From positions 1 to 61,509 of IMG/VR virus record IMGVR_UViG_3300050011_000416: a stretch of 61,509 nt of DNA; one strand, 5' to 3'. The position numbers and the translations under genes are program-made. Shown here piece by piece: positions 14,965-48,899 of the stretch. Within the stretch, counting starts at the first letter, position 1. The number at the start of each line of letters is the position of its first letter. This stretch comes from a virus. Under the pieces are notes generated by a model, which saw nothing but the letters and a program-made list of their open reading frames with translations, made no database searches and had not been told where the DNA came from.

Positions 14965-15141
14965 ATGACAGTGCAAGAATTCTTAGATCGCATGAATCAA
15001 CTACCTTCAGAAGTTAAAGCGTTGGAACTAGGATTTTTTGATTTCGGCAACGAAGATTTGGAATGGTTAGATTTCTACCTTGAGAACGAAAATTGGAAGA
15101 ACTGGAGCGGTGAAGGGGACCATACGTTTGTGATTTGCTAA
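14965..15141 (+). CDS. Small acidic protein of unknown function
   Basis: A 58-residue protein (MTVQEFLDRMNQLPSEVKAL), rich in Glu, Asp and Trp. It is the last plus-strand gene before the long minus-strand structural block, overlapping the convergent MuF-like gene by four bases. Confidence 0.5.
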   Translation: MTVQEFLDRMNQLPSEVKALELGFFDFGNEDLEWLDFYLENENWKNWSGEGDHTFVIC

Positions 15142-16991
15142 CTTTCTTCGTGCTGTTCCTTATACTCATCATGATCCAAAGAAACAAAGGATACAAAGCC
15201 ATTCTTAAATCCCCATCCAGTAGGAAGTTCTGCCAAGGAACACCTACAATTGTGGCTCACAATTCCGTTTACTACAAAACTTTCATCGTCTTCTACTGTA
15301 AGATCGTATAGTTTTTGCATAGATGCTTGTCCATACTCTAATTTGTTTATCTTTAATGGTTTGTAAAAATATTGCCCTAGAGAGTTCTTGCTTACCCTTT
15401 CAATATCTTCTACTATTTTATTCATTTCGTATCCAGGGCCATATCTTAGTACATGATATCCGCATTTTTGCAAATAACTATCTCTACCGGCCTGCTTTTT
15501 GAGAAAATTTTCCATAGTCATCTTACCGGATAGAACTGGAAGATAGTGTCCGCCCCCATCATATTCTAGAATAACCTTAAGATCTTCAATTACGCCGTCT
15601 ACGGTCCATTTGTGCATAAGTTGTTGCGGGGCCAACGTTGGATAAAACTCTCTTACTTCATTTATAAAAACGCTCTCTTCTTTAGAAATTCTAGGCATTA
15701 ATGAATTTAGCTTGGCTCTATGCAACGCCAAAAATTCCTTATTTTCTTCTTTTTGAGCCCAAAATTCTCCTTTTTTGATAAGTTCCCTAGTAGCCTCATT
15801 AGCCTTAAACATCAATTCAAGCATTCTCTCTGGATTATTTTTAGCAAATTCAGTCATTTGTTTAGCAGATTTAATAGAAATATTTTTTTTGTGGTCTGGA
15901 TCTTTCCATTGAAAAGAGGCCATACATTTTTTTGAACAAAAAATTCCCTTTAAGTTATTTCTCTTATCGTTACCCCATTTTATGGGCATTTCATAATTGC
16001 AGCTACTACAAGTAGAATAAAGCTGCATAAGTTCATCATTTTCTGTTAAATTTCTGGCCTCTACCCATCCGCGACTAGTCAGAAATTGATGTTCAGGAGT
16101 AACACTAAGACTTTGCTGCTTCTTCCAATGATTTTTCCCATTACTTTTTCTAGTTCCTTCAAAGAAAACCTTAATCATCTTGCCATTATAAGGCTTTGTC
16201 CAATTTTCTAGAGTATCTAAAACAGTCTTAAACTTTCCTGTGTGGGTCAACACTCTATCGCCGATCTTAACCTTATCGATTCTTAAATATCCCGCATGCT
16301 CTGTGTATATGTGAGCATTTCGACTAGTAAAACAATGGGGGTGTTCTCCGCAAGCACTTGGCCTATCTTCTCCGCGCTTATGATATCCCATGGATAGTTC
16401 ACTCATTTTATAAGTTTTTGGTGTTACTCCATCAGGCATCATATGAAGTTTAACACATTCCGAGCATGCTTGTCCATCTCTTACTATAATAAAAAATACT
16501 GTAGGATCCTCAATTCCCTGCGCTTCTGTCCTACCAACTATTTCCATAGTATGACCCATATTGCGAGTTTTGGTAGTTTCCGCTTCTGCAATTAGCCTCA
16601 TATGGCTTCTAGCTTTTTCCATATGTTCTGAGATAATGTCTGTCACCTGATTAGCTGTGACATGTTCTCCTCTAGTTTTAGCTTCTTTCACCAAGGCATC
16701 CACAGCTTCTGTTACATCGGAACTAGTCTTGCCCCTCAATCCTTCAATATATCCATAGGAACTATTCAAGATAGAACGGAGAACGTCACGTTCAAAGATA
16801 TTAGGTTCTTTGTTATTCATGGCCTGTAAGAAGATGTGGGCCAAACTAAATTTGGGTTGGGATCCAAAGAATTCCATCTTTTTATCCCTGAGCTTGGGGA
16901 TATTGCCCAATAGGTGATAGGCTAGACGATCAAACATCTTTTCTACAGCAATCCCGATAGCTTCTTTGCCAGAACTGCTTATCCCGTACAT
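15138..16991 (-). CDS. MuF-like head morphogenesis protein containing an intein
   Basis: A 617-residue precursor. The exteins (residues 1-219 and 582-617) form a Mu gpF-type minor head protein, with the conserved RDGQACSECVKLH and the terminal CRCSLAELP. Residues 220-581 are an intein: Cys220 in HPHCFTSRN, block B SVTPEHQFLTSRG, and the C-terminal DLTVEDDESFVVNGIVSHN before Cys582. Splicing would leave a 255-residue protein. It lies downstream of the portal gene, as in Mu and SPP1 head operons. AAAGG precedes the start. Confidence 0.8.
   Translation of the reverse strand: MYGISSSGKEAIGIAVEKMFDRLAYHLLGNIPKLRDKKMEFFGSQPKFSLAHIFLQAMNNKEPNIFERDVLRSILNSSYGYIEGLRGKTSSDVTEAVDALVKEAKTRGEHVTANQVTDIISEHMEKARSHMRLIAEAETTKTRNMGHTMEIVGRTEAQGIEDPTVFFIIVRDGQACSECVKLHMMPDGVTPKTYKMSELSMGYHKRGEDRPSACGEHPHCFTSRNAHIYTEHAGYLRIDKVKIGDRVLTHTGKFKTVLDTLENWTKPYNGKMIKVFFEGTRKSNGKNHWKKQQSLSVTPEHQFLTSRGWVEARNLTENDELMQLYSTCSSCNYEMPIKWGNDKRNNLKGIFCSKKCMASFQWKDPDHKKNISIKSAKQMTEFAKNNPERMLELMFKANEATRELIKKGEFWAQKEENKEFLALHRAKLNSLMPRISKEESVFINEVREFYPTLAPQQLMHKWTVDGVIEDLKVILEYDGGGHYLPVLSGKMTMENFLKKQAGRDSYLQKCGYHVLRYGPGYEMNKIVEDIERVSKNSLGQYFYKPLKINKLEYGQASMQKLYDLTVEDDESFVVNGIVSHNCRCSLAELPTGWGFKNGFVSFVSLDHDEYKEQHEES
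15249..16334 (-). mobile_element. Intein with an EDxHD (Vsr-like) endonuclease
   Basis: This is the 362-residue intein of the MuF-like protein. Between the splicing blocks it carries a zinc-ribbon stretch (CSSCNYEMP, FCSKKC) and then, near residues 435-518 of the precursor, a nuclease core ILEYDGGGHYLPV, RDSYLQKCGYHVLRYG. This resembles Vsr/EDxHD or PD-(D/E)XK enzymes rather than the usual LAGLIDADG or HNH type. The insertion point is the conserved His|Cys-Arg-Cys of MuF proteins. Confidence 0.75.
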
Positions 16992-20047: not shown

Positions 20048-21913
20048 TTAGATATTCCATGAAAAACCACCACGCTTGCCGGTTCCTCCGGTAGACACAG
20101 AGACTCCCATAGCTTTGGCAAGTTCTTTCTTCATCATTTCATGTTGTTCCTGAGTATGTTTTTGTTCTTCTGGAATTTGTGTTATACTGGGATCTACCAT
20201 AGTAATATTAGGTCTTTGGGGTCCACTAATAGGAAACATGTTCTGGCCAAGATATCTGAGGCTGTCTGCTATATCTGCTACTCCAGGGGTATCGTCCGGG
20301 GTAGACGTAACCTGACCTTGGCCATCCAAAAGAAACCTGTGTTTCATTATAGCGGTTCTTACTTTTTTAGTACTCTCGGTTTCTAGAATCTTGAGCAGTC
20401 TTTGTCCCGTAGCTGTCATTATTTTACTTCTAACAGAACCTATTCCTCCCATAACGTCCTTAACAAATTTTGGACAAGGGCAACCGTTTCTAACAAATGC
20501 TTTAATATAAGCTGGGGCCGATGTGTCACAATACCATTTCATCACATTATATTTTTCTTTAAAGTTTATTGCTACTGGAACTAAATCTTGTATCTCTAAT
20601 CTTGGACTCGCAAAACAATCGATAATCCAAACCTCTCCATTTGGAATTCTGGCCATTGCTAAAATAACTGCATCATGGGTATGGCCCCAATCTACTCCAC
20701 AATATACGGGAATATTTAAAGATTTAAGGATGGAATAAATAGAGTTGACATCGGTAGTGGATGGTGCTGGATTTCCAATAAGAGCTTCATAGGCCTGTTT
20801 TATAGAAATTAAATTACCATCCTTATTTTTATCTACATATCGAGGATATACCAATCCAGCAGAACCAACTTTCCAGCATAAAAGTTCTGATTCGGCAACA
20901 TCGACATCATTGTCTGCAAATTTTTGAAGCACCGAAACAATTGGTTTATAGAATCCGCCAGTAGCTGTTTGTGGTTTTTGAGAAAGTCTAGTTCTGCACA
21001 CAGGGAGTAGCTTGCAACCAACGCAACCTCCATGAACGTTTGGAATCATATCATACTTAGGCTTCTCAATATCCGGTAGACCGTTAAAATCATCTCCTGT
21101 AAGCTGGACAAGAGGAAGATTCCTAGCAACAAACATATCTTGTTTTGGCAATTCCGGTTTATGCCTTGTAATTGGGCACGCCTCGGTCACATCGAGAATA
21201 TTCCACGAAAGAATGGTGGAATTTGTTTCTTCAGCTTTATCTATGGCCTCTTGCATATTTCCGAAGGCGTACTTACGTGTTGAAAGATAAACCCTAATAC
21301 CGTAAAATCCTCTACTAAATCCTGTAATATTTTTACCTTGTTTGATAGCAGTAGGATCAGCTAAATCCAATTCATCCAAAAAAAGAAAATTAGCATGTAA
21401 GGAATTCATTCCTTTTGTAGTACATATTAGAATTTTAATAAATGGGGTTTTGCCTTCAGGAGTTTTATACTTAATAGTTCTCTTATTTTGGGTCATATTT
21501 TCCCATTTACTTATCTCAAGCAATGGGGCTATTTTTGTTATGAAATCTCCTATGTAACCTATGGCGACTGCAGACTGCTCCTCTGTAGCAGCGGCATGTG
21601 CAACTGTTCTAGAAAAATGTAACATAATCAAAAGCTCTAAAATGGCAACACTAACCGTTTTCATCCCTTCTCTGCAAGACATAAGTATAAAATTTGGCGT
21701 AACATCACCAGAATTATTCTTTGCTGCTTCGTAAATTTGCCAAATCGAGTCCAATGGAGAAGAGGAACTGCCAGGATCTGTAATTTCTAATGGAAGTTCA
21801 AGATCCAAAAAAGATAGTGCCCAGTCCTTTATGTCTTCGGCAGATTGCAGATGGTCGAACATGAGTCCTGCATACTCTTTTTTCTGATCATCTGTTAAGT
21901 TTTTAAAATCCAT
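20048..21913 (-). CDS. Terminase large subunit
   Basis: A 621-residue packaging motor. The ATPase domain has a Walker-A-like CREGMKT and the Walker B FLFLDELD. The nuclease domain has the RNase H-fold acidic residues in YCGVDWGHTHDAV, WYCDTSAP and ADSLRYL. A cysteine cluster (GGCVGCKLLPVC) sits between the domains. It cuts concatemeric DNA and pumps it through the portal. AGGAAC precedes the start. Confidence 0.9.
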   Translation of the reverse strand: MDFKNLTDDQKKEYAGLMFDHLQSAEDIKDWALSFLDLELPLEITDPGSSSSPLDSIWQIYEAAKNNSGDVTPNFILMSCREGMKTVSVAILELLIMLHFSRTVAHAAATEEQSAVAIGYIGDFITKIAPLLEISKWENMTQNKRTIKYKTPEGKTPFIKILICTTKGMNSLHANFLFLDELDLADPTAIKQGKNITGFSRGFYGIRVYLSTRKYAFGNMQEAIDKAEETNSTILSWNILDVTEACPITRHKPELPKQDMFVARNLPLVQLTGDDFNGLPDIEKPKYDMIPNVHGGCVGCKLLPVCRTRLSQKPQTATGGFYKPIVSVLQKFADNDVDVAESELLCWKVGSAGLVYPRYVDKNKDGNLISIKQAYEALIGNPAPSTTDVNSIYSILKSLNIPVYCGVDWGHTHDAVILAMARIPNGEVWIIDCFASPRLEIQDLVPVAINFKEKYNVMKWYCDTSAPAYIKAFVRNGCPCPKFVKDVMGGIGSVRSKIMTATGQRLLKILETESTKKVRTAIMKHRFLLDGQGQVTSTPDDTPGVADIADSLRYLGQNMFPISGPQRPNITMVDPSITQIPEEQKHTQEQHEMMKKELAKAMGVSVSTGGTGKRGGFSWNI

Positions 21914-22868
21914 GTGAAGTTCCTAAGAAATTGAGGCACCTACTAATGCAAATTTCTTTATCTTTAATCCAATCTTCTTCTTTAATATGCAGAATTTGAA
22001 TGCCTTTTGAGGCAAACCAATCATCTTTGATCTTGTGGTAATTTAAGATGTCTTCATCTGACCATTCAGATTTATGAGAATCTTTTCTCATAAATTCAAA
22101 CGAATGATATCGAGTGCCATCAAATTCTATCCCTTTGTTTAATTCTTGAACAAAGATGTCTATTTCAAATCCTTTAATGTGCGGCCTATCGATGATAGAA
22201 ACTTTCATGTCCCTCATCTTCTTACTCTCTGGATAAATATTTTTTATTATACATAAAAGTTCGTTTTCTGCAATAGAAGAAGATCTAGATAGTTTCATAT
22301 GCTTACAAATTTGATCTATGACCCCTCTTCTAGAAGCCACTAAACTGGCTGAACTATTTTTTTGAAATTCTCCACGCGTTTTATATTGCAATGCTTCTTT
22401 TTGAAGTGTTTCTGGAGTCCAATGAATATAATTCTGCTCCATGTGAGAACAAAATTGATCAAAAAACCCCCTTCTTCTGATCAAATTATATGCGGATTCA
22501 TTACTGTATCTTAGTTCTTTCAGTGTTTTGTATTTTAAGGCTTCCAGTTTAAGCATTTCATCTGTCCAATAAATACATCCATCTACCATATGACTACAAA
22601 CAGAATCAATTATATTCATTCTATGTGCTGCCCGATAAGCTCCACAACTACCTTTTAGAAATTCATTTCTAGTTTTGTATTTTAGGGCTTCTAGTTCTAC
22701 TATATTTTTGGGCCAACTATTTTGAGCCTTGTGCATATGAGTACAAATTTGATCTAAGATATCTTTTGAAATAGCCGATCTATATGCACCACGGCTTCCT
22801 TTTTGAAAACTAAATCGTGTTTCATATTTTAAAGCTTCTGCTTGCAATAAATTTAATGTCCATTTCAT
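21903..22868 (-). CDS. Free-standing homing endonuclease with four DNA-binding repeats
   Basis: A 321-residue protein. Four repeats of about 49 residues follow the pattern EALKYKTRxEFxKGSxGAYxAA, then IDxxCSHM, and probably bind DNA. The C-terminal third has an EDxHD/Vsr-like core (KGFEIDIFVQ, KGIEFDGTRYHSFEF, IQILHIKEEDW), related in pattern to the nuclease in the MuF intein. The ATG at 22868 abuts a CAATCTTA-type motif; a GTG at 22907 would add 13 residues. It sits between groEL and terminase and overlaps the latter by 11 bases. Confidence 0.8.
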   Translation of the reverse strand: MKWTLNLLQAEALKYETRFSFQKGSRGAYRSAISKDILDQICTHMHKAQNSWPKNIVELEALKYKTRNEFLKGSCGAYRAAHRMNIIDSVCSHMVDGCIYWTDEMLKLEALKYKTLKELRYSNESAYNLIRRRGFFDQFCSHMEQNYIHWTPETLQKEALQYKTRGEFQKNSSASLVASRRGVIDQICKHMKLSRSSSIAENELLCIIKNIYPESKKMRDMKVSIIDRPHIKGFEIDIFVQELNKGIEFDGTRYHSFEFMRKDSHKSEWSDEDILNYHKIKDDWFASKGIQILHIKEEDWIKDKEICISRCLNFLGTSHGF

Positions 22869-22880
22869 ATTATAAGATTG
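22867..22880 (-). promoter_or_regulatory. CAATCTTA-N3-TAT promoter candidate (homing endonuclease)
   Basis: On the minus strand CAATCTTA-TAA-TAT overlaps the ATG at 22868, with the same arrangement and flanks as before the HNH gene at 4021. Confidence 0.55.
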
Positions 22881-22907
22881 CCTTATTAACCTATAAAAGT
22901 CAAGCAC

Positions 22908-36713: not shown

Positions 36714-37377
36714 ACGTGTCCTAGCTTTAGATGTTTCAACCAAAACAGGGTACGCCTTAGTGGTAAGCTCTGATTCTGGTATGAAATTGGAAAATTATGG
36801 CACTATTTCTCAGATTCATCAACCTGATGGGAACTATCCATCCAATTATGTCATATGGGCTTACGATTGTTTTAATGAAATATTAAAAATAATTAATAGT
36901 TCTAATCCAGATGTTTTGGTGATAGAAGAGACTAGCAAGGGCAGTAAAAATGCTATGTCACAGAAAATATTGGAATTTTTACATTTTTTACTTGCCCAAT
37001 ATATAAAAGATAACCATATTAAGTCTGTATATATAATGACAGAACAATGGCGTAGAGAGATTGGCTGCCAGATGTCCAAAGAAGAAAAACTTAGAAACAA
37101 GGAAGTTCGGACATATAAGAAAAAGAACAAAACCATTATTGCTTACGATATAAACGGTAAAAGAACTGGACTTATTGGTAGGAAGCATGTTAACATACGC
37201 AGGGTAAGTGAGATTTTTGCAGGTCAGTTGAAAGAACCATTGAAGAGAAAATCGGAAGATGAAGCCGATGCTCTTGGATTATCTGCATGTTATCATTTTA
37301 GGAAAACCAGTAAAAACACTAAAATTGAAGAAGTTACACTGGAAGATATGTTAAAATTGGAAATAAATAAGGTATGA
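36703..37377 (+). CDS. RuvC-like Holliday junction resolvase
   Basis: A 224-residue RNase H-fold nuclease. The acidic residues appear in LALDVSTKTGYA, VLVIEET and SEDEADALGLS, the pattern of RuvC-type resolvases. It would cleave branched replication and recombination intermediates before packaging. The start is TTG at 36703. The next gene, an HNH endonuclease, is joined by ATGA. Confidence 0.75.
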   Translation: MNPERVLALDVSTKTGYALVVSSDSGMKLENYGTISQIHQPDGNYPSNYVIWAYDCFNEILKIINSSNPDVLVIEETSKGSKNAMSQKILEFLHFLLAQYIKDNHIKSVYIMTEQWRREIGCQMSKEEKLRNKEVRTYKKKNKTIIAYDINGKRTGLIGRKHVNIRRVSEIFAGQLKEPLKRKSEDEADALGLSACYHFRKTSKNTKIEEVTLEDMLKLEINKV

Positions 37378-38018
37378 GGGCTTATGTGGACAAGCCTAAA
37401 AATGATAGAAGCGGGCAAAAGATAGGGTCTTGGACTCTTCTTCATATTTCTGGAGTTAAGAGACTTAAGAATGCTATAAATAACAAGCACACTGTTATTT
37501 GGATGTATAGCTGTCAGTGCGATTGTGGAAACATTTGCGACGTAGGATGGCCCGATATTGCTGCAAAAAGATCCACAAAATGTTTTGATTGCCATTTTAA
37601 AGAATGCGTACTAAACTCACAAAGAGGTATAAGTAATTTTAAAAATAAGAATTCTAATTACAAAGGAACGAACGACATTCCTCATATATTTTTTAGCAGA
37701 GCGAAAAAGGGTGCGGAAAATCGTGATATAGAATTCAATATATCTATCGAAGATATGCAAAATCAATGGGACGTACAAAAAGGATTGTGTTATTATACTG
37801 GAATACCTTTAATATTTTATATGACAAAAAATATAGATAGAAGAGAAAATTTGAGTTTTAAGGCTAGTTTAGATAGAATCGATTCTAATTTGGGATACAC
37901 GAAAGAAAATATTGCTTGGACTACTAAAACTATAAATTGTACTAAATTAGATTTGACAAAAAAGGCCTTTTTAAAAATGTGTGAGTTAGTTTACTTATAC
38001 AATAAGGACAAATTATGA
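37374..38018 (+). CDS. HNH-type homing endonuclease
   Basis: A 214-residue protein. A cysteine cluster (CQCDCGNIC, CFDCH) precedes a nuclease core with GLCYYTGIPL, then SLDRIDSNLGYTKENIAWTT and N-C-T-K, the pattern of phage HNH enzymes in which the N-terminal CYYTG replaces the usual Cys pair. It is spliced cleanly between two plus-strand genes by four-base overlaps. It lacks a promoter of its own. Confidence 0.75.
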   Translation: MRAYVDKPKNDRSGQKIGSWTLLHISGVKRLKNAINNKHTVIWMYSCQCDCGNICDVGWPDIAAKRSTKCFDCHFKECVLNSQRGISNFKNKNSNYKGTNDIPHIFFSRAKKGAENRDIEFNISIEDMQNQWDVQKGLCYYTGIPLIFYMTKNIDRRENLSFKASLDRIDSNLGYTKENIAWTTKTINCTKLDLTKKAFLKMCELVYLYNKDKL

Positions 38019-42197: not shown

Positions 42198-42908
42198 CTA
42201 ATCAACATATTCAAATCGATATCCTTTAGTATGTCTATATTCTCCCTTTAAAACTCTAGATACAGACCTATCATCTAATTTTAATTCCGTCCACGCCTCT
42301 TTTATTGAATTGTATATTTTCCCACTGTTTAGACAAACTATCTTTCTGGATCTATGCTGGTTACCCATGAGACGAGTTGACATTTTTATTCTTTCTTCAT
42401 CTGACATCTTATTTCCTATACTATTTTTATTTCCTTTCATTTTTATTTTCTGTACTGCGGACATAGTTGGATTCGGTCCAGTCTTCTTTCCTTTATTCCA
42501 AACGGGAATTTTTCTTCTTTTTCTAGTTTCAGATATTCTTCTTCGAATATCTAGATCTTTGGTCTTACCGTGCAATGGATGGAGTTTTCCAGATGGAACC
42601 CACTTTCCTCCTGGTGCTCTATTAAAAAGCTTTACGTGCCTTTTACGTAAAAAGGATACTACCATAGACTCTCGAATGAATGCCATATCTGCGTCTCTAA
42701 AACAATGCATTATCTTTATAATTGGTAATAAACCCAATAATTTCAAACTATTAACCCATTCTTTATGTTTTATGGACCTATTGCTAACATTCCAAGCCCT
42801 TCCCTTGGTTCCCTTTCCCACATAAACTACTTGCTTTGTTCTTGGATCTATGTGAAGGTATACGTAGTGAATGTTTTCGTAGTACTTAATTGGTTTTCTT
42901 TTATTCAT
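42198..42908 (-). CDS. GIY-YIG homing endonuclease
   Basis: A 236-residue free-standing endonuclease. The N-terminal GIY-YIG domain shows HYVYLHIDP and VVYVGKGTKGRAWN with a downstream Glu. NUMOD3-type repeats follow (HPLHGKTKDLD, RKIPVWNKGKKTGPN, MSDEERIKMSTRLMGN). The C-terminus is a NUMOD1-like HTH (GKIYNSIKEAWTELKLDDRS). It is inserted opposite to its neighbours and uses its own CAATCTTA-type promoter, which overlaps the ribosome-binding site of the exonuclease gene. Confidence 0.85.
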   Translation of the reverse strand: MNKRKPIKYYENIHYVYLHIDPRTKQVVYVGKGTKGRAWNVSNRSIKHKEWVNSLKLLGLLPIIKIMHCFRDADMAFIRESMVVSFLRKRHVKLFNRAPGGKWVPSGKLHPLHGKTKDLDIRRRISETRKRRKIPVWNKGKKTGPNPTMSAVQKIKMKGNKNSIGNKMSDEERIKMSTRLMGNQHRSRKIVCLNSGKIYNSIKEAWTELKLDDRSVSRVLKGEYRHTKGYRFEYVD

Positions 42909-43789: not shown

Positions 43790-44049
43790 GAATATTTTTT
43801 AATCACAATACGTTGGATAGCTACCATAACGACAGCTGCGTAAAATTTGGTATAGGCTGGTATAGACACCACAAAAGCCATAAGTGGTTTGGAATTACTA
43901 TAGAACTCTATCTTCTTTATTGGGTAGTTAGTGGCAACTTTGTTAGTAATTATAAAGAATATCGAAAGAGAATGGACTGGAAACATAGTGACCATCTTAG
44001 GGAAGATTTAGCTGCAAAATTGGCAGCTAGAAAATTGGAGAAAAAGTGA
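43786..44049 (+). CDS. Small protein of unknown function
   Basis: An 87-residue basic protein with one hydrophobic stretch (WFGITIELYLLYWVVSGNFV), possibly membrane-associated. The ATG at 43786 overlaps the previous stop. Confidence 0.45.
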   Translation: MRIFFNHNTLDSYHNDSCVKFGIGWYRHHKSHKWFGITIELYLLYWVVSGNFVSNYKEYRKRMDWKHSDHLREDLAAKLAARKLEKK

Positions 44050-46163
44050 ATATAAGCATTCATACACACCCTGAATCCAGGCTCAGTGGTTCTCCCCTTC
44101 CTGCTATGATTAAGCGTGCAGTAGACTTGGGTCGTACCCATTTTTCCTATACTGACTTGGGCCACATCTCTAGTTGTTTGAAGACTTACGGTCTTGCCAA
44201 GAAGTCAGGACTCAAATTTGCTCCAGGTATTGAATTCTATTTCAAAGATCCCAAATGTCCATTCGTTACTGGAACTCAGGCAGATCGCTGTAGGTACTTT
44301 AATGCAGCACTTTTTTGTACTAATCAGCTCTCTTTTCAGGAACTCATAAGAACGGTATCTAAAGACGATATGCCCAAAATTGAGGTCCAAGAGGAAGAGC
44401 AATCCTTATGGTCCTGGGATGAACTGGAACGTCTAAGTAAGTTCGATACCCTCCTAGTTCTTGGGGGTGTCCACGATATGGTTGGGAAAGTCCTTCTAGC
44501 TGATGGCCCAGAATTGGCAGAAAAGGTATTACTCAGGGCTAAAGAGTTATTTGGTCCTAGATTATCCATAGCTTTGATCTGTGAACCATGGGATAAGAAA
44601 TACGCTACGGTTATCAAAATCAACTACACAGATGGTACCTATGACTCTTTATTGGCTTCTGACACGGTTACAACCGATAGGGCTAGAAAAATAAAGGTCT
44701 CAGATCTAATTAAAAGAGGTGGTCATACAGAGATTCAATCCAAAATTGTAGGTAATACTTTTTTTGAAGTCTATAAGAAAATAGATAACATTACGGAACA
44801 AAAAGGTTTTCTTCCATTGCCAGGTGGCGACATTACCCTTAGAATCAATAAATTTTTGCTCGAAATGTCCAAAAAATATGGAATTACGGCACTAGTATCT
44901 GACTACGCCTTTTATGCTTCAAAAGAAGATCACGCCGCTCAAACCATGGTTCTTGGCGGTAGTAAGCTAAAATCCGACCTTCATATGAAAACCGATGAAG
45001 AGTTCTATAAGTATCTTTATACCGTAATGAATCTGAGTCAGGACGAAGCCGCTCAACTTATATACAATAATAATGAGTGGGCTAAGAATTTTGATAACTT
45101 TGAATTGAAATACGAATGGCATTTGGCAGATAGTGGTGGAAATGCCGCACAGCAATGCATGGAGATTATTAAGAAAAAGGGACTAATGAAGTGGGATAAT
45201 CCTCTATGGACTGCTCGCCTTAGAGAAGAGTTTTTGGTCATTGCGAAAAACAAGGTCAAGGATCTATCCCCATATTTCTTGCCCATTCACGATGTCATTA
45301 ACTATTATGAGGAAAATGGCAGGCTTACTGGCCCAGGACGAGGAAGTAGTGCTGGAAGCCTAATTGCCTATCTAATGGGTATTACCAAAGTTAACCCATT
45401 TACTTACGACCTTAGTTTTAACCGCTTCTACTCTACAGATCGTATCGAAGCCCTTAAATTGGCCGATATCGATTCTGACTTGGAGTCTAGAGAATTATTG
45501 GTTGGAAGTGATGGTAAAAGCGGATATCTTTATGGTAGGTGGGGCAATAAGGCTGCCCAAATCAGTACCAGGGGCAAGATCAGGCTAAAGAGCGCAATCA
45601 AGGACACTAACCGATATTTTAAGGGATCTGTTGAGAAAGAAATCGAACAAATCTGTAAAAAGCTTCCAGATGCCGGTCAAGGCATTACAGATGAACAATT
45701 TTTGTTTGGTTTTGAGGATGATGATGGCAACCATATTGATGGGTTGATCGAAACTTCCGAAGTCTTACAGAAATACATAGCTGAACGTCCAAAAGAATGG
45801 GCAATCGTACAACAGGCTCTAGGGATTACTAGATCTTTTAGCCGACATGCCTGCTTCCCTTCTAGTGAGGCAATCTTAACTATAGAAGATGAAAAGATAG
45901 TAAAAAGAGGAATTATAGAATGTCACAACAAAATGATTCTAACAGGAACGGGGAGAAAGGCAAATGCGAGACTTCTCCATCAAGGACGGAAGAAGATTTA
46001 CAAGTACACACTCTCGGACGGGACAAGTATAAAGAGCACCTCAGATCACGAATTCTTAACACTAGAAAAAGGCTGGCAGAAAATAAATTTGATCCTGAAG
46101 GAAAACCTTACATTTTTACCTCTATCGATGACTGTAAAAGATTTGCTAAAAATAAAGGACTGA
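44046..46163 (+). CDS. dnaE: DNA polymerase III alpha, N-terminal part fused to an N-intein
   Basis: A 705-residue protein. Residues 1-602 are the first part of a bacterial-type replicative polymerase: PHP domain (SIHTHPESRLSGS, YTDLG), palm with GPGRGSSAGSLIAYLMG and LADIDSD catalytic acids, ending RSFSRHA. From Cys603 (CFPSSEAILTIEDEKI) it is the N-terminal half of an intein, with block B SIKSTSDHEFLTLEKGW, and stops after 103 intein residues. The rest of the polymerase is in the frame from 46989. The split point is the conserved RHA-A-G motif. The start is GTG on the previous stop. Confidence 0.85.
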   Translation: MNISIHTHPESRLSGSPLPAMIKRAVDLGRTHFSYTDLGHISSCLKTYGLAKKSGLKFAPGIEFYFKDPKCPFVTGTQADRCRYFNAALFCTNQLSFQELIRTVSKDDMPKIEVQEEEQSLWSWDELERLSKFDTLLVLGGVHDMVGKVLLADGPELAEKVLLRAKELFGPRLSIALICEPWDKKYATVIKINYTDGTYDSLLASDTVTTDRARKIKVSDLIKRGGHTEIQSKIVGNTFFEVYKKIDNITEQKGFLPLPGGDITLRINKFLLEMSKKYGITALVSDYAFYASKEDHAAQTMVLGGSKLKSDLHMKTDEEFYKYLYTVMNLSQDEAAQLIYNNNEWAKNFDNFELKYEWHLADSGGNAAQQCMEIIKKKGLMKWDNPLWTARLREEFLVIAKNKVKDLSPYFLPIHDVINYYEENGRLTGPGRGSSAGSLIAYLMGITKVNPFTYDLSFNRFYSTDRIEALKLADIDSDLESRELLVGSDGKSGYLYGRWGNKAAQISTRGKIRLKSAIKDTNRYFKGSVEKEIEQICKKLPDAGQGITDEQFLFGFEDDDGNHIDGLIETSEVLQKYIAERPKEWAIVQQALGITRSFSRHACFPSSEAILTIEDEKIVKRGIIECHNKMILTGTGRKANARLLHQGRKKIYKYTLSDGTSIKSTSDHEFLTLEKGWQKINLILKENLTFLPLSMTVKDLLKIKD
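45852..46160 (+). mobile_element. Split intein, N-terminal half (in dnaE)
   Basis: 103 residues from catalytic Cys1 (CFPSSEA) through block B (TSDHEFLT) to the stop codon. It would splice in trans with the half encoded at 46989-47102. Confidence 0.75.
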
Positions 46164-47011
46164 AATGTTTAGATAACAAATACGTTAGATGCGATTTTCC
46201 TATGTCTTGGGAATGCAGCAATGGACATATCTTTAAAAGACGCATAACCGATATGGTTAGAGGAACCGCAAAATGCCCTAAATGTGGAGATAGGGGTCGA
46301 GCAGAGCATTCTAGAAAAACATGGGAAGACATAAACAAAGAACTTAAAAGACGAGGACTCATTCCTCTATTTGTTCACGAAGACTATAAGAGCGTGGAAT
46401 CTGTCTTAAGGTTCAAACACACTAAATGCGGTAATGAATTCGAATGTAGGTACAGACAGGCCTTTAAACTTAAAGATGGAAGCGCGTGTCCAAAATGTAA
46501 TCCACTGTGCAAAAGGGGGACTTTGGAAGAATGCGAAAAATTGGCCCAAAAGAAAGGCGGAATTTGCGTAAAATTTTCTGGTAATGTTAAGGATATTTCT
46601 ACTTGGAAATGTAATGCAGAGCACGTTTGGCAAGCCCCACTATTCTTGATGCGCAAGGGAAGTTGGTGTATGATCTGCGAATACGATTCCAGAATAAAAT
46701 ATAAATCTGAAGAAGACTATAAGTTAGCGGGTCGCTTGGCCAGCTATAAACGAAGAGATAAACAAAAAAATAGAGGATTCGATATAGATTTTAACGATAT
46801 GCTTAAGCTCAAAGATTCCAAATGTTTTTACTGTTCAGATGAGGCTAAGGGGTACGATAGAAAAGATAATAGTTTGGGACACTTAAAAACAAATGTGGTT
46901 CCGTGTTGTTTTAGATGCAATAAGATAAAAATGGACAAAATTCCCTTTGACTTAATGATAGAAATAGGTAAAACTATAAATAAGTATTATGCTAAAAATA
47001 ACAAAAGTTGA
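45920..47011 (+). CDS. HNH-type endonuclease lying inside the split intein
   Basis: A frame of up to 363 residues between the intein halves. The recognisable protein starts near residue 63 (KPYIFTSIDDCKRFAKNKGL). Three zinc-ribbon repeats follow (WECSNGHIF...CPKC, FKHTKCGNEF...CPKC, WKCNAEHVW...CMIC). The C-terminal nuclease is CFYCSDEAKGYDRKDNSLGH, then NVVPCCFRCNKIKMDK. The first 81 codons overlap the N-intein in another frame, so the true start is uncertain (ATG 45920 or a later, unusual codon). Its end overlaps the C-terminal intein half by 23 bases. Confidence 0.7.
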   Translation: MSQQNDSNRNGEKGKCETSPSRTEEDLQVHTLGRDKYKEHLRSRILNTRKRLAENKFDPEGKPYIFTSIDDCKRFAKNKGLKCLDNKYVRCDFPMSWECSNGHIFKRRITDMVRGTAKCPKCGDRGRAEHSRKTWEDINKELKRRGLIPLFVHEDYKSVESVLRFKHTKCGNEFECRYRQAFKLKDGSACPKCNPLCKRGTLEECEKLAQKKGGICVKFSGNVKDISTWKCNAEHVWQAPLFLMRKGSWCMICEYDSRIKYKSEEDYKLAGRLASYKRRDKQKNRGFDIDFNDMLKLKDSKCFYCSDEAKGYDRKDNSLGHLKTNVVPCCFRCNKIKMDKIPFDLMIEIGKTINKYYAKNNKS

Positions 47012-47102
47012 AGAAATAGGATATGAAGACGTTTACGATCTTTTTGTAGACAATGAAGACCATTCTTTTATATTGGGAAATTCAGGTGTAATTGCGCATA
47101 AT
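46989..47102 (+). mobile_element. Split intein, C-terminal half (in dnaE)
   Basis: 38 residues with block F (VYDLFVDNEDHSFIL) and block G (GVIAHN) before Cys+1. The length is typical of natural split-intein C-halves. Confidence 0.75.
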
Positions 47103-48899
47103 TGCGCATTTGTCATTGCAGATATGCCCATTTCTGATCTGGTTCCTCTTAAAGAAGGCCATATTACCCAATATGAAGCTGGGGCTTGTGAAGAAGCTGG
47201 TTTGGTTAAATACGACTTTTTGGTTATCAATCAATTGAAAGATATCAGAGTTTGCTTGGACTTGATCAATAAGAAGAATGGCGATGTCAACAGAGTTGGT
47301 TATTTTAACCATAAAGGCCTAAGAACCTACATTTGGGACTTACCAGAAGATCCAGAGGCCTACAAAAGTGTTTGGAATGGAGAGACAGAATCCTGCTTTC
47401 AAATCAATACCACCACCATGACCCCTTTTGTGAAATCCGTCATGCCCCAAAATATGGAAGATCTTTCCATCATTCTATCCCTTGTTCGCCCTGGTCCATT
47501 GGACTATGTTATCGAGGAAACCGGCAGAAATATGGCTAGGGAGTACGTACATCGTCGTGATGGCAATTCATATGAAGATATTGAAATCCTAAAGGAATTG
47601 ATTCCACAGACACATTCGGTTCTTGTTTATCAAGAGCAGGTTACTAAGATCGCAAAGGAACTAGCTGGATTCTCCGGCAGTGCTGCTGAAAATCTCAGAG
47701 AAGCTATTGGTAAAAAGAAGCGCTCTACGATTTTAAAGATTAAGCCTGAGTTTATTAACGGATGTAAGTCTTCAGGCAAGGTTACCGAGGAAGAGGCCCA
47801 ACAGCTATGGGAACGAATCGTGACCTTTGGTAGATATGCGTTTAATAAATCCCACGGAATCTCATATGCCCACATTACCTACGCTTGCATGTTCCTTAAG
47901 CATTACTACAACTTGGAGTTTTGGGCAGCCATTCTCACAAATGCCAAGGAAAAAGAGATCTCAGGCAAGCTCTGGCCTCACGTAAGAGACTTGGTAGCTC
48001 CTCCAGATATCAACCTATCTTCCGATGAAATGGAGATTGACTACGCCAATCACAAGATTCGTGCCAAGTTAGGTGTCATCAGGGGAATGGGTGCTGCTAC
48101 AATCGATCCTATTGTGGCTGGAAGGCCCTACAAAGACATCCAAGACTTCGTCAATAGGGATGTGGCCGGACCAGCTCTTAGCCGTAAGCTAACCCACGTA
48201 GGAGTCTTAGACTCCCTATATCCTCCCAAGTTAGGTTTATTGGAAAAACTTCAATTGTTTGAGAATGCTCTAGAGATCAAGAAACACGATAAAAAAGTAG
48301 AAAAGGCAAGATTAGAGGGTAAAACCATAAAAGCCTCTTTGCCCAAGTTGGGTGAGATTCCAGAAGAATATCTCAGCATTGAAAAAGATCCTATGAAGAA
48401 CGCTGCTATAAAGAAATCGATTCTTCCTAGCCTTTTAGTTGGTTTGAGAGATCTCGGCATGAAGTACTCCAAATGTTTGGAATATAAAGACATTCCTTCT
48501 AAAATGATGGTATCTGCTGAAGGGCGAAGGGGTGTAGAGTTTGATACTAGGTACAAGCCAACCGATAAAGAGAGGATTTTCTTGATTAGCGGGGAGATGC
48601 TCCAACAATTGGACGAGCAAACTGCTGAAGAGGTATCGGAAGATAAGTATGCGGTAGTTACTGCTTTCATTGTTGAAACTAAGGTATTTGACTATAAGAA
48701 AAATACAAAGCAAGCATTGAAGGTTGTAATGGACGTAGATGGGGTAACTAGTGAGAAAGTTCTATGGCCAGACTACTTCACCCAAGAATTGACTTATCCC
48801 AAGGAGCTTAAGAAGGGCAACATTTGTACAATTTTCCTAAAGAAACGTGCAAATAAGGCAGATGTTTGTTCAATTACAGAAATTGTAATAGAGGCTTGA
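46989..48899 (+). CDS. dnaE: C-intein fused to the C-terminal part of DNA polymerase III alpha
   Basis: A 636-residue protein. Residues 1-38 are the C-terminal half of an intein (DVYDLFVDNEDHSFILGNSG, ending VIAHN). Cys39 begins the polymerase C-extein (CAFVIADMPISDLVPL), followed by the finger domain (SLVRPGPLDYVIEETGRN, KSHGISYAHITYACMFLKHY), helix-hairpin-helix and OB-fold regions. Trans-splicing would join RSFSRHA to CAFVIA and give a polymerase of 1,200 residues. There is no strong ribosome-binding site before the ATG. Confidence 0.85.
   Translation: MLKITKVEEIGYEDVYDLFVDNEDHSFILGNSGVIAHNCAFVIADMPISDLVPLKEGHITQYEAGACEEAGLVKYDFLVINQLKDIRVCLDLINKKNGDVNRVGYFNHKGLRTYIWDLPEDPEAYKSVWNGETESCFQINTTTMTPFVKSVMPQNMEDLSIILSLVRPGPLDYVIEETGRNMAREYVHRRDGNSYEDIEILKELIPQTHSVLVYQEQVTKIAKELAGFSGSAAENLREAIGKKKRSTILKIKPEFINGCKSSGKVTEEEAQQLWERIVTFGRYAFNKSHGISYAHITYACMFLKHYYNLEFWAAILTNAKEKEISGKLWPHVRDLVAPPDINLSSDEMEIDYANHKIRAKLGVIRGMGAATIDPIVAGRPYKDIQDFVNRDVAGPALSRKLTHVGVLDSLYPPKLGLLEKLQLFENALEIKKHDKKVEKARLEGKTIKASLPKLGEIPEEYLSIEKDPMKNAAIKKSILPSLLVGLRDLGMKYSKCLEYKDIPSKMMVSAEGRRGVEFDTRYKPTDKERIFLISGEMLQQLDEQTAEEVSEDKYAVVTAFIVETKVFDYKKNTKQALKVVMDVDGVTSEKVLWPDYFTQELTYPKELKKGNICTIFLKKRANKADVCSITEIVIEA

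Follow-up and report, generated by a model that had tools for sequence, protein, structure and literature searches.

How does a phage keep a working replicative polymerase when the gene for it is broken in two and an endonuclease gene lies in the break? This question is raised by the IMG/VR record IMGVR_UViG_3300050011_000416, a linear viral record of 61,509 bases that is a fragment of a phage genome and was analyzed over its full length (the window). In the window the gene dnaE, encoding DNA polymerase III alpha (Pol III alpha), is interrupted directly after RSFSRHA and before CAFVIA. Two halves of a split intein (IntN and IntC) flank the break, and an HNH-type endonuclease gene lies between them, with its start nested out of frame in IntN. 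The locus is very probably a mobile fractured gene, i.e., a trans-splicing homing element with a nested out-of-frame endonuclease gene. Its features are as follows.

44046..45851, plus strand: N-extein DnaE-N (PHP and N-terminal polymerase part of a phage DnaE), start codon GTG, 602 residues, ending ...GITRSFSRHA
45852..46163, plus strand: IntN, N-terminal half of the split intein, 103 residues including Cys1 (45852-46160), stop codon 46161-46163; block A CFPSSEAIL, block B STSDHEF
45906..45912, plus strand: Shine-Dalgarno-like AGAGGAA, 7 nucleotides (nt) before the HNH start codon, free energy (dG) -6.0
45920..47011, plus strand: HNH homing-endonuclease-like gene, 363 residues, with three treble-clef zinc ribbons and a PacI-like HNH core, frame -1 relative to IntN
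45920..46163, plus strand: dual-coding overlap of 244 nt, the HNH N-terminus (frame -1) within IntN
46817..46927, plus strand: HNH-like catalytic core (CFYC...YDRKDNSLGHLKTNVVPCCFRCNK), from motif and fold comparison
46989..47102, plus strand: IntC, C-terminal half of the split intein, 38 residues with its own ATG, sequence MLKITKVEEIGYEDVYDLFVDNEDHSFILGNSGVIAHN; TIGR01443 match
47103..48899, plus strand: C-extein DnaE-C, the remainder of DnaE, beginning at the +1 Cys (CAFVIAD) and containing the fingers and the third catalytic Asp (VKYDFL)

DnaE-N and DnaE-C match Pol III alpha profiles at 3e-40 and 1.3e-79, respectively. Alignment to solved structures places the split between A512 and G513 of Escherichia coli alpha (residue numbers counted by hand on the printed alignment). 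DnaE-N carries the catalytic motif ADIDSD, of the PDxDxD type (spliced-protein residues 473-478), and DnaE-C carries the VKYDFL Asp, which aligns with E. coli D555. Because the catalytic Asp residues are divided between the two pieces, neither should polymerize alone, and the view taken in the original prediction that a functional replisome would depend on trans-splicing appears sound. The open reading frames that were screened in this 61.5 kb fragment include no second polymerase. Among isolated phages, Myxococcus phage Mx1 has the most similar DnaE (31% identity across 94% of the query), and its dnaE is continuous at the RHA site.

The residues of a class 1 intein are complete: Cys1, TSDH (TxxH) in block B, block F (DVYDLFVDNEDHSFI), the terminal His-Asn of block G (GVIAHN) and the +1 Cys. 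IntN ends in LLKIKD before its stop codon. When joined, the two halves reach 39.1 bits against Pfam Intein_splicing (cut-off 35.8), and among solved structures the joined intein is closest to split or engineered DnaE inteins (7qil, 2keq) and gp41-1. The original prediction had described a polymerase that runs into an intein half and a stop, and a new ATG that starts a 38-residue half ending IAHN before CAFVIA. Both descriptions, and the coordinates, agree with the present analysis, except that Cys1 is counted within the 103 residues of IntN and does not precede them. Chance is excluded as the origin of this arrangement because both exteins match DnaE profiles, the intein lies above the Pfam cut-off, and three further phage contigs have the arrangement at the identical position.

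These relatives were found among approximately 118 distinct viral dnaE contigs obtained by profile searches and counted by hand. The gene is continuous at RHA|C/S in approximately 114 of the 118, including the closest relatives, L020 and L021 (73% identical), so that the uninterrupted alleles give the exact insertion point. One contig (L036) has a contiguous intein at exactly the RHA|C site. Three contigs (L070, L097 and L161), two recovered with polymerase profiles and one with an IntC profile, have the same split intein, the same HNH family and the same HNH start position at the same site. The class 1 residues and an IntC start codon at its first strand are kept in all four loci. Relative to the window, DnaE of the three contigs is 29-37% identical and the HNH protein is 31-35% identical over its full length and 35-40% in the core; IntN is 35-38% and IntC 47-53% identical in L070 and L097. 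The relatives thus include both uninterrupted alleles and a contiguous-intein allele, the comparison that had been proposed as a check, and they agree with the sequence on the earlier identification of a split intein with an HNH-type gene between its halves at the RHA motif.

The HNH gene had been described as a separate frame following the first intein half. It is a separate frame with zinc ribbons, but it does not follow IntN; it begins at 45920, within IntN, and this nested start was missed by the earlier description. At its 3' end it overlaps the start of IntC by 23 nt, so that the endonuclease gene overlaps both of its neighbors. ATG 45920 is the sole start in the HNH frame within IntN, and codon preference in this frame is poor upstream of it and good downstream. 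Constraint on the overlap was assessed by holding the IntN protein fixed and drawing synonymous codons at phage frequencies in 20,000 shuffles. The HNH frame was open in at most 1 of the 20,000 (P <= 5e-5), with approximately 8 stop codons expected and 0 present. The same procedure applied to other gene stretches of the window never gave an open frame. In L161 and L097, P values of 2e-4 and 0.001 were obtained, respectively. All four loci place the HNH start codon in one and the same Glu/Ala-Cys dipeptide of IntN (GAATGT, GAGTGC, GAATGC and GCATGC), at distances of 68, 59, 59 and 68 nt from Cys1. Silent removal of this ATG or GTG is impossible because it is built from the IntN Cys codon. The HNH frame is -1 relative to IntN in every locus, whereas the frame of IntC varies; the HNH gene and the IntC start overlap by 4 nt in L097 and 35 nt in L161 and are separated by a 46-nt gap in L070. 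In L070 (L070:5089-5727), which is GC-rich, the IntN frame stays open for approximately 580 nt past the intein across the HNH gene, so that a long out-of-frame tail on this IntN is possible.

The constant -1 frame also fits a different route of expression, in which the HNH protein has no start of its own and is made as a DnaE-N-IntN-HNH fusion by programmed -1 frameshifting. Candidate slippery sequences are present in phase in the window (A_AAT_TTG at 46085) and in L161 (A_AAA_AAA). However, these lie at differing places, no slippery site occurs in L070 or L097, the start codon position is kept in all four loci with Shine-Dalgarno-like sites in three, and the coding signal of the HNH frame begins only past the ATG. 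Frameshifting is therefore unlikely, and internal initiation at ATG 45920 would be the most likely route. Promoter-like matches in the region were as numerous as expected from shuffled sequence.

The HNH protein consists of a basic N-terminus (modeled with low confidence), three treble-clef zinc ribbons (DUF4379) and the core CFYC..YDRKDNSLGHLKTNVVPCCFRCN. It matches the PHROG families HNH endonuclease and endonuclease VII. By fold it is most similar to PacI, an HNH restriction enzyme (E 5.2e-3, probability 1.00; predicted local distance difference test (pLDDT) of the model 68), which is also the plausible one of two weak sequence matches (E 0.26). An HNH core had been proposed; the core is HNH-like and nearest to PacI, but the canonical first His is absent, as the nuclease core reads DRKDNSLGHLKTN..CNK with Arg at that position. 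PacI uses Asp-Arg and Tyr in place of the classical HNH Asp-His, and the position of the PacI Tyr is taken by His in the core of the window protein. A PacI-like active site working through the His of the GH pair is thus plausible. With the HNH protein alone as query, no match was found at first in the viral contigs, and no HNH relative was found in the genome contigs, in which the one archaeal intein match is unrelated. One viral contig (L155) has an HNH relative outside any intein.

A further possibility is that DnaE works as a two-subunit enzyme whose parts are joined through IntN-IntC pairing and never ligated (genes in pieces). This is prompted by a second split of dnaE elsewhere in the gene, present in approximately 15 related phage contigs (L071, L072, L076, L100, L102, L103, L105, L110, L116, L119, L129, L131, L133, L135 and L147). 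In these, DnaE-N stops shortly past PDIDxDL with a conserved tail, VVEFEAEDGTKHILPEDFKIETDQGLMT..EA...PWW (e.g., L102:5317-5517 and L105:5417-5614), and DnaE-C restarts with MKIxKIT...GWLxERFG after a gap of -29 to 1,244 nt, which in some cases contains an endonuclease gene. Comparison of the tail profile with that of IntN gives a match with an hhalign probability of 94.3% and a score of 42.0, against at most 13.8 in 40 column-shuffled controls. Neither block A, with Cys1, nor the block B His is present in the tail. The C-terminal heads showed no match to IntC beyond MKI (10%). The tails may be inactivated split inteins that were retained for assembly of the subunits, a lead from sequence comparison; a comparable tail role is reportedly found on fragmented phage NrdA. 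At the RHA site, in contrast, Cys1, TxxH, HN and the +1 Cys are all kept in the four loci, and pairing without ligation is unlikely there.

Far less probable is a contiguous HNH-containing intein that only appears split through frameshift errors in assembly, or through decay to a pseudogene. IntN and IntC do share one frame, with the HNH frame one off, in the window and in L070. However, IntC is in the third frame in L097, which rules out one open reading frame broken by two errors; four independent contigs share the arrangement, each with a separate IntC start, IntN has a stop of its own, and the frames truly overlap. Restoration of the gene by RNA splicing of a group I or group II intron is hardly credible: HNH genes are often carried by introns, but no intron RNA family matched even at E <= 1, and the flanks encode intein splicing blocks that end exactly at the extein junctions.

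The split, the full set of intein motifs, the precise empty site, the nested conserved start, the dual-coding constraint and the recurrence in four lineages are what the case for a mobile fractured gene is built on. Under this reading two polypeptides, DnaE-N-IntN and IntC-DnaE-C, would be made. IntN and IntC would pair and splice in trans via Cys1, the terminal His-Asn and the +1 Cys, and the product would be a continuous Pol III alpha of 1,200 residues. The zinc-ribbon/HNH protein would cut intein-free dnaE at RHA|C, and the whole unit would be copied in. Gain or loss by homing is compatible with how patchily the element is distributed and with the vacant sites of close relatives.

Several points weigh against this reading. 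The overlap test in L070 gave P 0.40, and the GC-rich sequence makes this value uninformative. IntC has no Shine-Dalgarno sequence in the window, and its translation there would rely on coupling or readthrough. In the HNH core the classical catalytic His is Arg, and activity through the GH His is argued from the PacI analogy only. Between loci, the similarity of the HNH gene and of the intein does not exceed that of the polymerases, and the GC content of the insert tracks that of each host; recent homing is for these two reasons not supported, and the transfers would be old or the inheritance long. No identity gradient indicating co-conversion was found around the site at 70% DNA identity.

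The cyanobacterial split DnaE intein (Npu/Ssp) also resides in Pol III alpha and is among the nearest solved relatives. Its halves are encoded far apart, it is not known to have an associated endonuclease gene, and its insertion site lies before CFNKSHS; the C-extein of the window is uninterrupted at that site (GRYAFNKSHG). Fractured genes with split inteins were reportedly described by Dassa et al. in 2009 (NAR 37:2560). Those loci, mostly of phages, reportedly likewise have a conserved DNA enzyme broken by a split intein with a separate endonuclease gene between the halves. The window would differ from them in the enzyme (Pol III alpha), in the PacI-like HNH protein, and perhaps in an endonuclease start that lies 59-68 nt inside IntN, in another frame and at a conserved position. 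The 2009 fractured genes are cited in PMC6892783 and PMC10448857. In Pseudomonas phage MIJ3 a split PolB has a split intein with an HNH gene between its halves (PMC6892783). In MIJ3 and its relative PA5oct, as in the window, a split intein interrupts a replicative polymerase and an HNH/Hef-like endonuclease gene lies in the break, but the polymerase is of family B and the intein begins with Ser1. In PA5oct (L179) the overlap between the endonuclease and IntN genes is just 8 nt. A hidden out-of-frame HNH insertion without splicing domains has been described in a phage methylase as the ShiLan element (PMC11855218). It shares with the window a zinc-finger HNH protein encoded in an alternative frame within the insertion, with a start near the 5' end of the insert. 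The ShiLan insert is read through in frame, whereas the HNH gene of the window is flanked by both full halves of a true split intein. The element thus appears to combine a fractured gene with an out-of-frame HNH gene, at a new gene and site and with a conserved nested start.

The neighbors of the split dnaE encode RNase H, two exonuclease-like proteins, a DnaB-type helicase, a primase and a UvsX-like recombinase. The window is from a tailed phage, because portal, terminase and major head protein genes are also present together with the replication genes around the split. It contains other mobile elements. A second, contiguous intein (15138-16991, minus strand) has an HPH|CRCSL junction and a DUF559 (Vsr-like) endonuclease domain, and its host protein resembles a MuF-like minor head protein. 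A free-standing homing endonuclease gene (42198-42908, minus strand), with a GIY-YIG-like start, NUMOD3 and an I-HmuI-like NUMOD domain, is antisense to the exonuclease gene just upstream of dnaE. Two more homing/HNH-type endonuclease genes (21903-22907, minus strand; 37374-38015, plus strand) were identified; one adjoins the terminase gene (MTES_1575 nuclease match) and the other is endonuclease VII-like. Intein-size in-frame insertions (approximately 190-430 residues) occur at four more positions of phage dnaE genes, near window residues 288, 437, 777 and 851 (L030/L056, L077/L078, L115, L129, L131, L133, L144 and L147).

The Pol III alpha site is added to the catalogue of fractured genes. 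In four divergent cases a homing endonuclease gene is overprinted on its own intein with its start conserved, which opens to testing how an endonuclease gene enters and splits an intein and whether the overlap protects the endonuclease from loss. The naturally split inteins (103+38, 93+36 and 105+36 residues) are potential protein-ligation tools. The IntN-derived tails at the second dnaE split hint at the eventual fate of split inteins. It is a tentative and somewhat doubtful proposal that an intein and endonuclease locked together by the overlap may, on losing catalysis, be left as the tails of a two-subunit polymerase, by which a selfish element would become a module of subunit assembly.

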